Shown: positions 279 to 19,973 of the stretch, piece by piece | Position numbering within the stretch: position 1 is the stretch's first letter | Layout of the letters: every line of letters starts with the position of its first letter | IMG/VR virus record: IMGVR_UViG_3300042465_000407 | Coordinates: 1-21,564 of that record | Source: a virus | DNA: 21,564 nt | Reading direction: 5' to 3' (one strand) | Notes under the pieces: model-generated | What the model was told of the DNA's origin: nothing | What the model saw: the letters and a program-made list of their open reading frames with translations, nothing else | The model's database searches: none | Program-made: the position numbers and the translations under genes

Positions 279-1022
279 ATGAATTTGTGCCGAATATCAA
301 ATGATGTTATAACTAAGGCCATGAAAACATTAGATAAAAAAAATGCATCGCCTAACCCGTTAGATGGGGATTTAAGACGGTTTAGTGCTGTTCCCATTAG
401 GGCTTGCCAAGACAAACGATTGTCGATCAATGACCACCGGGTTTTGTTGGTCTTGTGTGCTTATACCAATAAGAGCGGCGTATGCTTTCCGACTTATGAA
501 ACGATGGAAAACATTATCGGATTAGGGAAAAGTGCAATCCAGGCGAGCATAAAGCGATTGGAAAGCTATGGTATTTTGCGCCACCTTAAACCCGTTTGGT
601 ATCCTAATCAGAAAAGCCCATGGAAGACTAACCGTTATCAAATCCTATACCTTGGCAGCGAAACACCTATCCCAAGCGAGGAGGAGCTAAGAGACGCGAG
701 AGCTTATAACATCGGGCAAGATGATGAAGAGCGAGATGATAGCTATAGAGAGATAGGGGAGAAGCCTAAGAATGATCCATCGCATATCGAAAGGGATGCA
801 AAGGGTATGCAGCTATTCAATTCATTTAATAGAGCAATCAACCAATTTGGATCAAATGCGATTTATCAAACCAATCAAATCGTTGCCAATCGATTAGCTG
901 ATAATGGCATGACACCGGGGCAAGTATCAACCGATACGCTGGCATTCATCAAGGCCAATCTTGCAAGAACCGGAACCGTTCCCACGAGCATGAATGCAAT
1001 TTACCCAATGCAAAACATATAA
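279..1022 (+). CDS. Winged-helix (HTH_36-like) DNA-binding protein, possibly replication-related
   Basis: A 247-aa protein. Residues about 48-105 have the pattern of an HTH_36-type winged helix: LSINDHRVLLVLCAYTNK, then CFPTYETMENIIGLGKSAIQ as the helix-turn-helix, then a third helix ending near YGILR, with a beta wing around KTNRYQILYL (117-125). HTH_36 domains occur in phage and plasmid replication initiators and in some regulators. The remainder (130-247) is polar and matches no family I recognise. The start is uncertain: ATG 279 has only a distant AGGA (261-264), and ATG 321 has AAGG too close. The last codons lie inside the heptanucleotide array, so the C-terminus is itself repeat-derived. 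Position next to the array and facing a leftward gene fits an origin-binding or regulatory role (inference). Replication initiator and transcriptional regulator cannot be separated from sequence alone. Confidence 0.72.
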   Translation: MNLCRISNDVITKAMKTLDKKNASPNPLDGDLRRFSAVPIRACQDKRLSINDHRVLLVLCAYTNKSGVCFPTYETMENIIGLGKSAIQASIKRLESYGILRHLKPVWYPNQKSPWKTNRYQILYLGSETPIPSEEELRDARAYNIGQDDEERDDSYREIGEKPKNDPSHIERDAKGMQLFNSFNRAINQFGSNAIYQTNQIVANRLADNGMTPGQVSTDTLAFIKANLARTGTVPTSMNAIYPMQNI

Positions 1023-1187
1023 TGCACCATATGCAATGCATCATATAGATTGCCCAATGCATCATATAAAATGCCCAATATAAAATGCATCCATCCCACC
1101 AAATGGGTCCAACAATCTAAAACAAATGCACAATATAAAATGCAATGTGCATCATATAAAATGCATCCAGCCCAATATGTGAGTCCC
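993..1187. repeat. Degenerate heptanucleotide (7-bp) repeat array
   Basis: Read in steps of seven from 993, the sequence splits into related units: AATGCAA, AATGCAC, AATGCAT, CATATAA, AATATAA, AATGCCC and C-rich units such as CCATCCC/CCAGCCC. AATGCA begins at 993, 1007, 1021, 1035, 1056, 1084, 1125, 1139 and 1160. Spacings are 14, 14, 14, 21, 28, 41, 14 and 21: all multiples of 7 except one slip of a single base between 1084 and 1125. ATATAAAATGC occurs exactly at 1064, 1078, 1133 and 1154, and a 17-base block (TGCATCATATAAAATGC) at 1058 and 1148. The array starts inside the 3' end of the upstream gene and fills the adjacent gap. Possible roles are replication iterons, a binding array for the neighbouring winged-helix protein, a packaging site, or a slippage-derived repeat. 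No function is shown by sequence alone. Confidence 0.8.
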
Positions 1188-1341
1188 ACGCTGTGAGACA
1201 AGACACATGCCCCCCACCCCTGCGCGGTCCTCTCGGGGTCTCCCCCTCAATATTTTTTCCAAATTCATAAATTCAAACCATCAGTGCTTGTGCAGGGGAA
1301 ATTGAGATCTGCATCAACATTTAGTTAACCCAGTATATTTT
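1188..1341. other. Non-coding stretch with C-rich tract and AT-rich flank
   Basis: Together with the repeat array this fills the 379-base gap between the genes at 279 and 1402. It holds a C-rich segment (1210-1246: six Cs, A, four Cs, then later five Cs) whose complement is G-rich. A small GGGG-TCT-CCCC hairpin (1235-1245) is followed 7 bases later by six Ts (1253-1258). The hairpin could be a weak rightward terminator for the winged-helix gene, but the arms are only 4 bp and the T run is displaced. From 1259 to 1341 the sequence is AT-rich, with a short AAATTCA direct repeat and no convincing gene or RNA. A packaging or origin site would fit here but cannot be shown. Confidence 0.4.
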
Positions 1342-1370
1342 TTGACAAGTTTCTGTAGAAGGCTTATCTA
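1342..1370 (+). promoter_or_regulatory. Candidate promoter of the packaging/structural operon
   Basis: A perfect TTGACA (1342-1347) is followed after 17 bases by TATCTA (1365-1370). The -10 matches only 3 of 6; an alternative TATGTT at 1369-1374 fits better but with a 21-base spacer. It stands directly upstream of the first late gene, whose AAAGAGG ribosome site is at 1385-1391. Position and -35 quality support it; the weak -10 suggests modest or activated use. Confidence 0.45.
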
Positions 1371-1401: not shown

Positions 1402-1875
1402 ATGCGTAGATCAATGCGTTCTATCCGTAGGGATATTGCTACTCCAAAGCGTGATGCTGTGCTGCAGGAATTAGAGGCTGTAGCGGCATCGTCCATCACT
1501 GACGTACTTTGGTGGGATAATGCTGGCAACGTGGCTGTACGGCCTTCTGAGGAGCTTGCTGGGCATGTTAAGGCTGCTATCAAGAAGGTGAAGGTTACGC
1601 CAACGATGCATGGTAACCAGATCGAGATAGAGATGCACGATAAGATGAGGGCTTTGAATACCCTTGCCAAGCACTATGGCTTGATGGAGGTAGTGCAGGA
1701 TGAGAACAGGCCGTCTATTATTGGAATCAATCTGCATGGCCCAGCGGTAACGAGTTATGAAGTCAAAGAATCTGTCGAAGAGGAAGATGAAGAAGAGGTC
1801 ATTGGAGGCATTGGCACTCCAGTCATCGATCTTTCGGCTGAAGATAATCAAAAGCAAAAAGAGGAGGTGGCATGA
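1402..1875 (+). CDS. Terminase small subunit-like protein lacking the usual N-terminal HTH
   Basis: A 157-aa protein directly upstream of the large terminase, ending in an ATGA overlap with it. Residues about 17-97 match the C-terminal part of Terminase_2-type small subunits: AVLQELEAVAASSITDVLWW, an acidic DNAGN turn, VKVTPT, then HDKMRALNTLAKHYGLME, the helix that normally closes the family core. In those proteins a DNA-binding HTH domain of roughly 60 residues precedes this. Here the frame is closed by TAA at 1393-1395, so no such domain can be encoded upstream in frame. Start ATG 1402 has AAAGAGG (1385-1391) 10 bases before it. The C-terminus (residues about 122-157) is strongly acidic (EEEDEEE). 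The role would be selection of DNA for packaging and modulation of the large subunit; how DNA is recognised without the HTH is unclear. Confidence 0.72.
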   Translation: MRRSMRSIRRDIATPKRDAVLQELEAVAASSITDVLWWDNAGNVAVRPSEELAGHVKAAIKKVKVTPTMHGNQIEIEMHDKMRALNTLAKHYGLMEVVQDENRPSIIGINLHGPAVTSYEVKESVEEEDEEEVIGGIGTPVIDLSAEDNQKQKEEVA

Positions 1876-3413
1876 AGATCAAAGGCGCATCAGCAAAGAG
1901 GAAGCCGACTGAGGAGCCAGCCATTGATGGACTCAATTTTGATTTTTCCAAGTCACCTACTGTCTGGAAGTTCCTCGGAGATGATAGCTTTTTTCGTGGT
2001 CTGCTCGGTCCTGTGGGTTCTGGTAAGTCTTATGCTTGCGCCGCCGAGATAATCTTTAGAGCCATCAAACAACCGCCAAGCCCGATTGATAATGTGCGAT
2101 ATTCACGGTTTGTAATCGTTCGTAACAGTTATCCTGAACTTAGAACTACAACGATCAAGACGTGGAACGAGATCTTTCCAGAGAATATCTGGGGGCCAAT
2201 GCGCTGGTCGCCCCCTATTACCCACCATTTGCGGTTGCCGACACGCGAGGGGATTCCCGGTCTTGACTGCGAAGTGATCTTTCTTGCCCTCGATCAGCCC
2301 AAAGATGTTCGTAAACTGCTGTCACTGGAACTTACAGGAGCATGGATCAATGAAGCGCGTGAACTACCGCTGGCTGTTGTCCAAGGGCTTACTCACCGCG
2401 TTGGTCGCTATCCCACTAGAGCTAATGGTGGTGCTCCTTGGCGTGGGATCTGGGCTGATACTAATCCAATGGATTCAGACCACTGGTGGTATCGACTGAG
2501 CGAGAAGGAAACTGTCCAAGGGAAATATAAATGGACGTTCTTTAAGCAGCCACCAGGCATGATCGAGGTAATGCACGATGCTCCAGAAGCCATCCCTGCC
2601 GCTGGCAAACACTGGCTGATCAATCCTGCTGCCGAGAACATTGATAACCTGGTCAACGGCTACTACGAACAGCAACTTGGCGGCAAGAATCTTGACTGGA
2701 TCAGGTGTTATGTAGGAGGTCAATTTGTTTACGTTCAAGAAGGCAAGTCTGTCTGGCAGGAATATCTGGACTCACAAATGGTCCAAGATAAGATTGATTA
2801 TAGACCAGACCTACCATTACATATTGGCCTTGATTTTGGTCTCACTCCTGCTGCTGTTTTTGGGCAGCGGTTGCCAACTGGTAGGTGGAACATCCTGCAC
2901 GAAATCGTATCTTTCGACATGGGCTTGGAACGTTTCGCCCAGATCCTTATCGGTGACGTAAACAGCCGCTATCCAAAGGCTCAGATCTTCATCTGGGGTG
3001 ATCCTGCGGGTATTGCGCGAGACGGGATCTTTGAAGTGACTGCGTTCCAGCACCTGAAAAGCCTCGGCCTCAACGCCCAGCCCACTCAAAGCAACGACTT
3101 CATGGTTCGACGCGAAGCTGGTGCTGCTCCAATGCAACGTCTGATTGATGGAAAGCCTGGACTACAGGTGGACTCAGCGTGTGTTCGGGTTAGAAAAGCC
3201 CTTGGGGGCGGGTATCATTTTAAGCGCGTAGGGGTTGGAGGCGGCACAGATCGTTTTCGAGACGCCCCTAATAAAAATGAGCACTCGCACGTAGGTGATG
3301 CTTACGGTTATCTTATGCTTGGTGGAGGGGAATTTCGTCACCTTACCCGTGGTCATACTGCTCATCATCCTAAACACCAGGTTATAGCCCCGTTGGATTT
3401 CAATGTCTTTTAA
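1872..3413 (+). CDS. terL: Terminase large subunit (packaging ATPase and nuclease)
   Basis: A 513-aa protein of normal size for a large terminase, which drives DNA into the prohead and cuts it. The ATPase half shows Walker A GPVGSGKS (46-53), a Walker-B-like strand GAWINEARE (156-164) with Asn-Glu in place of the common Asp-Glu, and a coupling-motif-like DTNP (196-199). The RNase H-like nuclease half has three Asp clusters: GLDFGLTPA (D321), IWGDPAG (D377) and HVGDAYGY (D476). Translation begins at ATG 1872, overlapping the small-subunit stop by 4 bases, behind a strong GAGGAGG (1861-1867), which indicates coupling. The following gene starts 11 bases before this one ends. Identification is secure from motif order and spacing. 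Confidence 0.95.
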   Translation: MKIKGASAKRKPTEEPAIDGLNFDFSKSPTVWKFLGDDSFFRGLLGPVGSGKSYACAAEIIFRAIKQPPSPIDNVRYSRFVIVRNSYPELRTTTIKTWNEIFPENIWGPMRWSPPITHHLRLPTREGIPGLDCEVIFLALDQPKDVRKLLSLELTGAWINEARELPLAVVQGLTHRVGRYPTRANGGAPWRGIWADTNPMDSDHWWYRLSEKETVQGKYKWTFFKQPPGMIEVMHDAPEAIPAAGKHWLINPAAENIDNLVNGYYEQQLGGKNLDWIRCYVGGQFVYVQEGKSVWQEYLDSQMVQDKIDYRPDLPLHIGLDFGLTPAAVFGQRLPTGRWNILHEIVSFDMGLERFAQILIGDVNSRYPKAQIFIWGDPAGIARDGIFEVTAFQHLKSLGLNAQPTQSNDFMVRREAGAAPMQRLIDGKPGLQVDSACVRVRKALGGGYHFKRVGVGGGTDRFRDAPNKNEHSHVGDAYGYLMLGGGEFRHLTRGHTAHHPKHQVIAPLDFNVF

Positions 3414-3894
3414 CTTTATCGACCATCTCAATCAAATTCTACCAGAAGAGTGTAGAGCAGTGCCATTCCACTGGGGACATCTGCATTTGATGGACCTCGA
3501 TGCTGGTCAGCAAAAGACAATCAAGCATACACCAAACTTTGCCCAGACTGTGCAGCACTATGCAGACAATGGATACTCCGCGACTATCCTTCTTCTCGGC
3601 AAGCCCGTTATTTCTTTTGGTGAAATGCAGATCTGGCCTAACGTCCATGAGTTGTGGATGATGGGAGATATACCAACCTTCAAGAAAAACCCCATAAAGT
3701 TAACTAAATTATCGAGAAAGTCTATTAATAGTTTAGAAAACAACCTCATTTGGCACAGATTGCAGATAGTTGTGCGCTGTGATAATGTTTCGGCTGTTAA
3801 ATGGGCGCGGACTATTGGCTTCGAATATGAGGGGCTTGTTCGCAAATACACTCCAGACGGGTGCGATTGCATCTTTTATTCGAGGGTCAAATAA
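3403..3894 (+). CDS. GNAT-fold acetyltransferase-like protein (T7 gp13/DUF2833-like)
   Basis: A 163-aa protein overlapping the end of the terminase gene by 11 bases. The C-terminal motif NVSAVKWARTIGFEYEGLVR (128-147) is the typical GNAT region where Asn-x-x-Ala is followed by a helix and a Gly-Phe-x-x-x-Gly strand. The middle (60-95) holds beta strands ILLLGKPVISFGEM and VHELWMMGD. No clear acetyl-CoA P-loop (Q/RxxGxG/A) is visible, so catalysis is uncertain. The combination resembles phage proteins of the T7 gp13 (DUF2833) type, which have a GNAT-like fold and act in virion assembly. The ribosome site is weak (GGA at 3395-3397), so expression probably depends on coupling to the terminase gene. 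Alternative: an active acetyltransferase modifying a phage or host protein. Confidence 0.7.
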   Translation: MSFNFIDHLNQILPEECRAVPFHWGHLHLMDLDAGQQKTIKHTPNFAQTVQHYADNGYSATILLLGKPVISFGEMQIWPNVHELWMMGDIPTFKKNPIKLTKLSRKSINSLENNLIWHRLQIVVRCDNVSAVKWARTIGFEYEGLVRKYTPDGCDCIFYSRVK

Positions 3895-18623: not shown

Positions 18624-19973
18624 ATGTCTGACTATAACATCACAGCGGTAACACGGCGCAAAGTCTACTCTGGTTCCGCTGGAACTGGACCCTACGCATT
18701 TACGTTCCCGGTGATCAGTCAGACCGACATTGCTGTCTATAAAAACTCTACCAAACTGACGCTAACAACTGATTACACTGTAACGATTAGCAGCGCGAAT
18801 GGCACTGGTAGTGTTACTCTGGTATCAGCAGCCACTGGCTCTGATAAGATTACGATCATCGGATCTCGTACTATCCAGCGCACGACAGATTTTGTTACTG
18901 CTGGTGATCTGAACGCATCAGCATTGAACGAGCAGCTTGATAGCCAGATCATTATGCTTCAGCAGCTTGCCGAGGAAAACAAGCGCACGTTGAAGGCTCC
19001 TCCTTATGATCTGGAATCGGTCGAGGACGGCGGCACTCTTAACATGGTTATGCCACCATCGGCACAACGCGCTGGCAAAGTGCTTGCGTTTGATGAGAAC
19101 GGTATCCCTACAGTTGCCGCAACAGTTGGTAGCTACGCAGGATCGTGGACTACTGCAACTGCTTATAACTACCGTGATCTGGTCAAAGACCCGGTTAACT
19201 CTAACGTCTATTTCTGTAATACATCGCACACCTCGTCAGGCTCTGCTCCTATCTCAAGCAATGCTGACACAGCTAAATGGGACTTGGTAGTTGATGCCGC
19301 GTCTGCTGCCGATTCTGAAACTAACGCTGCGGCCTCTGCATCTGCTGCATCCAGTTCAGCTTCTGCCGCATCTTCTAGCGCATCGGCTGCATCAACTTCT
19401 GCATCCAATGCCTCGACCAGTGCAGGGAACGCATCGACATCTGCTACTGCGGCGGCGGCTTCTGCTACTGCGGCTGCTGCTAGTTATGATGCTTTTGATG
19501 ATCGCTATCTTGGATCTAAGAGTTCTGATCCTTCCGTTGATAATGATGGAAATGCGCTTCTGACTGGCGCACTTTATTTCAATTCATCGTCAACCAAAAT
19601 GCGGGTGTATAACGGCACTGTCTGGCAAGATGCTGGATCTTCTGTAAACGGAACGTCTCAAAGATATTCATATGTAGCAACTTCTGGGCAGACAACATTC
19701 TCTGCAACGTATGATTCTGGATATGTTGACGTATACCGCAACGGTGTAAAACTTGTTCGCACAACAGATTTCTCTGATTCAACTGGAACATCTATTGTTC
19801 TTGTGACTGGCGCAACTGTAGGTGATAACGTAGACATTGTAGGATACGGGACATTTTCAATTGCAGCTATTGATGCTGGCTCAATCACAACTGGTACACT
19901 TGATATTGCTCGCGCACCGTGGGCTGCTTCAACAGGAAAGGCAATTGCTATGTCAATTGTTTTTGGAGGTTAA
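18624..19973 (+). CDS. Tail fibre with T7-type N-terminal attachment domain
   Basis: A 449-aa modular fibre. Residues 1-160 match the N-terminal tail-attachment domain of T7 gp17-like fibres: YSGSAGTGPYAFTFPVISQT, TDYTV, TIIGSRTIQRTTDF, LNEQLDSQIIMLQQLAEENK. Residues about 170-224 (GSWTTATAYNYRDLVKD, VYFCNTSHTS, AKWDLV) resemble a CBM5/12-like carbohydrate-binding module. Residues 225-287 are an almost pure Ala/Ser/Thr stalk. Then comes YDAFDDRYLGSKSSDPSVDN with ALYFNSSSTKMRVYNG, common in phage fibre proteins. Residues 346-410 look like a second, shortened copy of the N-terminal beta unit. The C-terminus (GSITTGTLDIARAPW) is brief, so the main receptor-binding surface may lie in the downstream adhesin. 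GAGG at 18613-18616 serves ATG 18624. Confidence 0.87.
   Translation: MSDYNITAVTRRKVYSGSAGTGPYAFTFPVISQTDIAVYKNSTKLTLTTDYTVTISSANGTGSVTLVSAATGSDKITIIGSRTIQRTTDFVTAGDLNASALNEQLDSQIIMLQQLAEENKRTLKAPPYDLESVEDGGTLNMVMPPSAQRAGKVLAFDENGIPTVAATVGSYAGSWTTATAYNYRDLVKDPVNSNVYFCNTSHTSSGSAPISSNADTAKWDLVVDAASAADSETNAAASASAASSSASAASSSASAASTSASNASTSAGNASTSATAAAASATAAAASYDAFDDRYLGSKSSDPSVDNDGNALLTGALYFNSSSTKMRVYNGTVWQDAGSSVNGTSQRYSYVATSGQTTFSATYDSGYVDVYRNGVKLVRTTDFSDSTGTSIVLVTGATVGDNVDIVGYGTFSIAAIDAGSITTGTLDIARAPWAASTGKAIAMSIVFGG
19297..19484 (+). repeat. Ala/Ser/Thr-coding low-complexity repeat (fibre stalk)
   Basis: About 63 codons, nearly all Ala, Ser or Thr with a few Asn, Glu and Gly, in recurring units such as SASAAS and STSA. 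At DNA level short pieces (tctgctgcatc, tctgccgcatc, catcggctgcatc) recur with different synonymous codons. The repeat is therefore old or held at protein level. It links the fibre base to its distal domains, probably as a trimeric helical stalk. Confidence 0.75.

Follow-up and report, generated by a model that had tools for sequence, protein, structure and literature searches.

We find that, in this virus, the spacer separating a winged-helix gene from the packaging genes contains a degenerate heptanucleotide tandem repeat, that is, a long simple-sequence repeat, which on balance we think arose by slippage and has no role shared across the phage family. The window (the whole stretch analysed, 21,564 nucleotides of IMG/VR virus record IMGVR_UViG_3300042465_000407, contig G000) encodes a terminase, a head-tail connector (PF12236), a T7-type capsid assembly protein and a capsid protein. 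Of the named phages, Methylophilales phage MEP301 comes closest in TerL (65% identity), and a search for similar DNA among named phages and plasmids gave no match. The gene order is winged-helix gene, array, GC-rich element, terS and terL:

321..1022, plus strand: winged-helix (HTH_36) gene, probable start ATG at 321 in an open reading frame running from 279; Pfam PF13730 (E 1.2e-12) and PHROG 391/270 'replication initiation' matches.
993..1187, plus strand: degenerate heptad array with a composite 14-bp unit, AATGC-N3-ATAT-NN, and some 21-bp units (autocorrelation at 14, 21 and 76; motif count; heptad parse).
1205..1260, plus strand: GC-rich dyad element consisting of a C-run, CCCC...GGGGT and then CTCAATATTTTTT (C-A-C-rich plus an A/T run).
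1342..1370, plus strand: putative promoter-like TTGACA-17-TATCTA before terS, with a weak -10, in a block 95-100% identical among the four array-bearing records.
1402..1875, plus strand: small terminase subunit gene, terS, matching only positions 62-130 of Pfam Terminase_2.
1872..3413, plus strand: large terminase subunit gene, terL.

The promoter scan did not list the promoter-like sequence. The TerS match covers those positions out of 141 in the Terminase_2 model, and the usual N-terminal DNA-binding part is apparently missing. The winged-helix neighbour is predicted to fold into a winged helix followed by a C-terminal helical domain; its AlphaFold model gave only generic winged-helix matches in the PDB (DnaD, Rep, TubR, MarR), and tblastn found no match to it among named phages. 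The 5′ end of the array lies inside the last codons of this gene, and the array also holds its stop codon (TAA). The protein ends in MNAIYPMQNI in the window and in the related record L003, and in S(I/V)VFPI, terminating in the first array unit, in L002 and L004.

An earlier note on this DNA had reported nine copies of AATGCA at spacings of 14, 14, 14, 21, 28, 41, 14 and 21 bases, and our recount reproduced these exactly (positions 993, 1007, 1021, 1035, 1056, 1084, 1125, 1139 and 1160); 2000 dinucleotide shuffles of the segment gave a mean of 2.3 copies and a maximum of 8. A heptad parse places all 11 A[AT]TGC words in a single 7-base phase before the one-base slip and a single phase after it, and the alternation of CATATAA/AATATAA heptads with AATGCNN heptads was also described correctly. 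Against 2000 dinucleotide-preserving shuffles, the autocorrelation of 993-1187 is strong at lag 14 (z 6.1), lag 21 (z 5.3) and lag 76 (z 4.5). The peak predicted at lag 7, however, was not significant in this test (z 1.1, p 0.14), so that the 7-base phasing stands, with periods of 14 and 21, and the literal 7-bp period does not. The weakness of lag 7 beside lag 14 reflects the alternation of AATGCNN with NATATNN, which makes adjacent heptads unlike and every second one alike; the 21-bp units carry an extra AATGCCC-type heptad at some places in the array. Reducing the sequence to purines and pyrimidines raised lag 7 to z 3.2, but lags 5 and 9 were equally high and we discarded this as support for period 7. 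The array is thus 7-phased and built of composite 14- and 21-bp units, and is not a simple 7-bp repeat. In a scan of the whole window, no other 195-bp stretch reached its summed lag-14 and lag-21 value; all five copies of AATGCNNNATAT in the window fall within it (0.36 expected). The array can be divided as follows:

993..1090, plus strand: first in-phase heptad block, with a copy number that varies among relatives (21- and 56-bp indels).
1091..1124, plus strand: single-copy stretch between the two blocks, holding the one-base slip; conserved in four records.
1125..1173, plus strand: second heptad block, nearly invariant across four records.
1077..1097, plus strand: AATATAAAATGCATCCATCCC, with a copy, CATATAAAATGCATCCAGCCC, 76 bp downstream at 1153-1173 (from the lag-76 peak and the sequence).

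The same array occurs in three other IMG/VR records, the closest relatives of the window (L002/G001, L003/G002 and L004/G003), making four records in all, and, as the earlier note had anticipated for related phages, the number of units differs among them, with three to eight recognisable per record. Their alignment shows gaps of 56 and 21 bp, both multiples of 7. Two further loci, L085 and L088, had been picked up as carriers; they matched the pattern by chance and are not related. One reading frame through the array stays open in the window and L003, but the 56-bp indel breaks it, as does a stop in L004, and we rejected a coding role. The array therefore has the features by which heptanucleotide tandem repeats are recognised: tandem units in 7-base steps (one phase, a single slip), though with significant signal at lags 14 and 21, not 7; a length beyond statistical expectation; copy number that varies by unit steps among close relatives (the 21- and 56-bp indels); and indels free of the multiple-of-three limit of coding DNA, as seen from the 56-bp indel and the frames in the four records.

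Beyond these records the array is rare. Among 64 non-redundant loci sharing this gene order, strong periodicity immediately 5′ of the GC-rich element was limited to the window clade and one other locus, L108 (IMGVR_UViG_3300016476_000583). There the slot that the array occupies in the window, flanked by the homologous gene and the conserved GC-rich element (3848-3900 in L108), holds about 15 degenerate direct repeats (3650-3830; z about 10-12) with an 11-bp period and an unrelated unit, TCNGCATACNC, with variants such as TCTGCATCCGG and TCGGCATACAC. The corresponding slot of L006 contains no array, although L006 and L108 share 88% identity in TerS and 65% in the winged-helix protein, which indicates that arrays are gained or lost over short distances. 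Since most relatives lack the array, it is not needed for functions common to this gene order, and any function it has would at most be that of an accessory spacer or a lineage-specific binding site.

Similar heptads are found outside phages. In a scan covering one genome for each bacterial and archaeal species, two consecutive 14-bp units turned up at 46 places, most of them single and chance-like; the search pattern presupposes the heptads, and only extension beyond it counts as evidence. Eight of the 46 places do extend, to runs of 8-25 heptads (AATGCNN, AATATNN and AATACNN types), in contigs of Lentisphaerae, Anaerolineales, Bacteroidales, Saprospiraceae, Nostoc, Prevotella, Clostridia and Verrucomicrobia, lineages that we assume to lack this phage's proteins. 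According to Mrazek et al. (2007), as cited in PMC4679880 and PMC4692102, in most bacterial genomes no class of long simple repeat is more abundant than the heptanucleotide one, and such repeats are attributed to DNA polymerase slippage by 7 nucleotides. It is because of these similar AATGCNN/AATATNN arrays in unrelated bacteria, together with the literature on 7-nucleotide slippage, that we class the array as a heptanucleotide repeat, a kind known from bacteria and here found in a phage. Bacterial repeats of this class (PMC4679880, PMC4692102) resemble the array in their 7-base step, intergenic position, direct orientation and variation in copy number among close relatives; the array differs in lying in a phage, in being more degenerate and in alternating two heptads, which makes periods of 14 and 21, not 7, visible. 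The intergenic TAACTGA repeats of Beggiatoaceae, Cyanobacteria and Bacteroidetes (PMC4679880) likewise form direct heptamer arrays beside genes, have a scattered phylogenetic distribution and have been proposed, without proof, to be regulatory. They are, however, built of another heptamer and lie mostly upstream of start codons, whereas the window array overlaps a stop codon.

If slippage is the correct explanation, the array would have grown by replication slippage or unequal recombination in steps of 7, 14 and 21 bp, within a spacer that presumably tolerates changes in length, and fork stalling at the adjacent GC-rich element may have aided the process. The 21- and 56-bp indels with three to eight motif copies among the four records, the restriction of the array to these records, the contrast between L108 and L006, and the heptad runs in bacteria all point in this direction. 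The suggestion in the earlier note that slippage expansion also shaped the C-terminus of the gene gains support from the multiple-of-7 indels between relatives and from the last codons and TAA lying inside the array. Some observations, however, fit slippage less well: the units are degenerate and not near-perfect, there is a single frame slip, and the second block is almost invariant. In addition, changes in orthologous arrays avoid the AATGC/ATAT core, where 5 of 83 columns vary; in the spacers the figure is 13 of 43 (Fisher p 0.0007). The variable columns are also grouped according to heptad phase (permutation p 0.00075). This core conservation may mean selection on a binding motif, or it may stem from copying between units whose sequences were already different at these sites.

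The avoidance of core changes is one argument for a tentative second reading, in which the 14-bp AATGC-N3-ATAT units are operator-like sites of a lineage-specific binding array acting in late transcription or packaging, and which we regard as possible though doubtful. The putative binding partner would be the neighbour's C-terminal domain, TerS or a host protein. Consistent with such a role, all units share one orientation, no comparable density of them occurs elsewhere in the array-bearing records, the array has a DNA-binding gene on one side and the late/packaging genes on the other, and conservation extends jointly over the C-terminal half of the neighbour, the array and TerS. Turnover of units by slippage, however, could produce the same pattern of core conservation; the same heptads occur in unrelated bacteria, and close relatives with similar TerS and winged-helix proteins have no array. 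Overall, moreover, the core is about as conserved as the four-fold degenerate sites of terS and terL, which gives no sign of strong extra constraint. If the binding reading were true, a large family of uncultured podoviruses would offer a case of a repeat array that evolves as a regulatory module where the early and late regions meet.

Allele exchange in the neighbour gene bears on which protein could be involved. The winged-helix domain has one allele in the window and L002 and another in L003 and L004, whereas the last codons of the gene together with the 5′ part of the array have one form in the window and L003 and another in L002 and L004; alleles and tail/array variants thus occur in all four combinations. 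Window positions 347-751 gave no nucleotide match in L003 or L004. This segment, the winged-helix domain, is swapped for an unalignable allele between close relatives while both flanks are 80-91% identical. Identity at four-fold degenerate sites is 0.37-0.54 in the winged-helix gene (near saturation) versus 0.81-0.96 in terS/terL. As judged by sequence comparison, then, the DNA-binding domain is exchanged and the array retained, which argues against a tight protein-array pairing; the C-terminal domain, TerS or a host protein could still bind the array. Cooperative binding by the HTH_36-like neighbour, also proposed in the earlier note, is weakened by this reassortment. A broader version of the binding idea treats the slot between the winged-helix gene and the GC-rich element as a hotspot, where independently arisen arrays (7/14-bp in the window clade, 11-bp in L108) would be lineage-specific multivalent sites controlling the late/packaging region, the repeat and not the protein being the fast-evolving specificity element. 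We consider this improbable.

Direct repeats beside an O-like gene invite the label 'origin', and caution is needed because the comparison points to an origin elsewhere and to slippage for the array. The proposal that the array consists of iterons for the neighbouring O-like protein, with its AT-rich units as the unwinding region, has in its favour the match of the neighbour to PHROG 391, 'replication initiation O-like' (E 1.1e-11), and the fact that variable numbers of AT-rich direct repeats overlap the 3′ end of the gene. The likeness to lambda, whose origin has repeats followed by an AT-rich stretch inside gene O, however ends with direct repeats overlapping a winged-helix, O-like gene; the array has irregular 14/21-bp units at the gene's 3′ end, and a better lambda-like candidate in this phage family lies inside a separate early gene. 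The early operon of G003 encodes, about 3.4 kb upstream of the array, a second winged-helix protein matching phrog_270 (E 1.6e-27), and homologues in L008, L102 and L119 match at E 6e-42 to 7e-39 (lowest 5.9e-42). This early initiator gene, present in G003 and G001, is distinct from the array's neighbour and scores better. In G003, G001, L008, L102 and L119 it holds short direct or palindromic repeats and then an AT-rich stretch, the sequences differing and the layout being alike:

L215 10288-11043 (G003, minus strand), L099 2-493, L008 1377-2270, L102 97-948 and L119 87-911: early initiator gene with internal, lineage-specific iteron-like repeats.

The gene is the likely lambda-like origin of the phage family, as far as sequence analysis can indicate; the window contig begins downstream of it, and the evidence for it comes from relatives. 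The array also lacks two properties of iterons, in that the winged-helix alleles of its neighbour and the array variants reassort freely instead of co-varying, and most phages that share the gene order carry no such array. DnaA-box-like words show no excess, and the cumulative GC skew recommended in the earlier note is not informative and does not single out the array. The array is thus probably not the replication origin, and we give that reading very little weight. Another product of the G003 early operon is a phage protein whose C-terminus resembles DnaA domain IV (Bac_DnaA_C; L215 11170-11673).

The GC-rich element is far more widely conserved than the array. It lies directly 3′ of the winged-helix gene homologue in 69 non-redundant loci and in MEP301 (L089, about 33870-33930, minus strand), even where terS is far off. 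Three contigs end within it (the start of L012 and the ends of L105 and L116), and contig ends fall in the element and not in the array; these may be physical genome ends or assembly breaks at a hairpin. The element may be a packaging (cos), replication (origin) or termination site. That the array, just 5′ of this element and of terS, belongs with 1205-1260 to a cos/pac packaging or transcription-termination region is a reading for which we see only a small chance. The strongest C-over-G asymmetry of the window, at 1151-1290, and the three contigs ending in the element would fit it, but nearly all 69 loci keep the element without the array, which is therefore dispensable for it, and several near-complete contigs run through the element. 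Folding of the array as RNA is unremarkable (z -1.4), and an Rfam search of it matched no family. Rho-dependent termination in the array, considered from the C-over-G bias, was set aside, as the bias fits the GC-rich element at least as well. Elsewhere in the window (19335-19481), a tail-fibre-like open reading frame contains 21-bp tandem repeats that encode serine/alanine-rich heptads.
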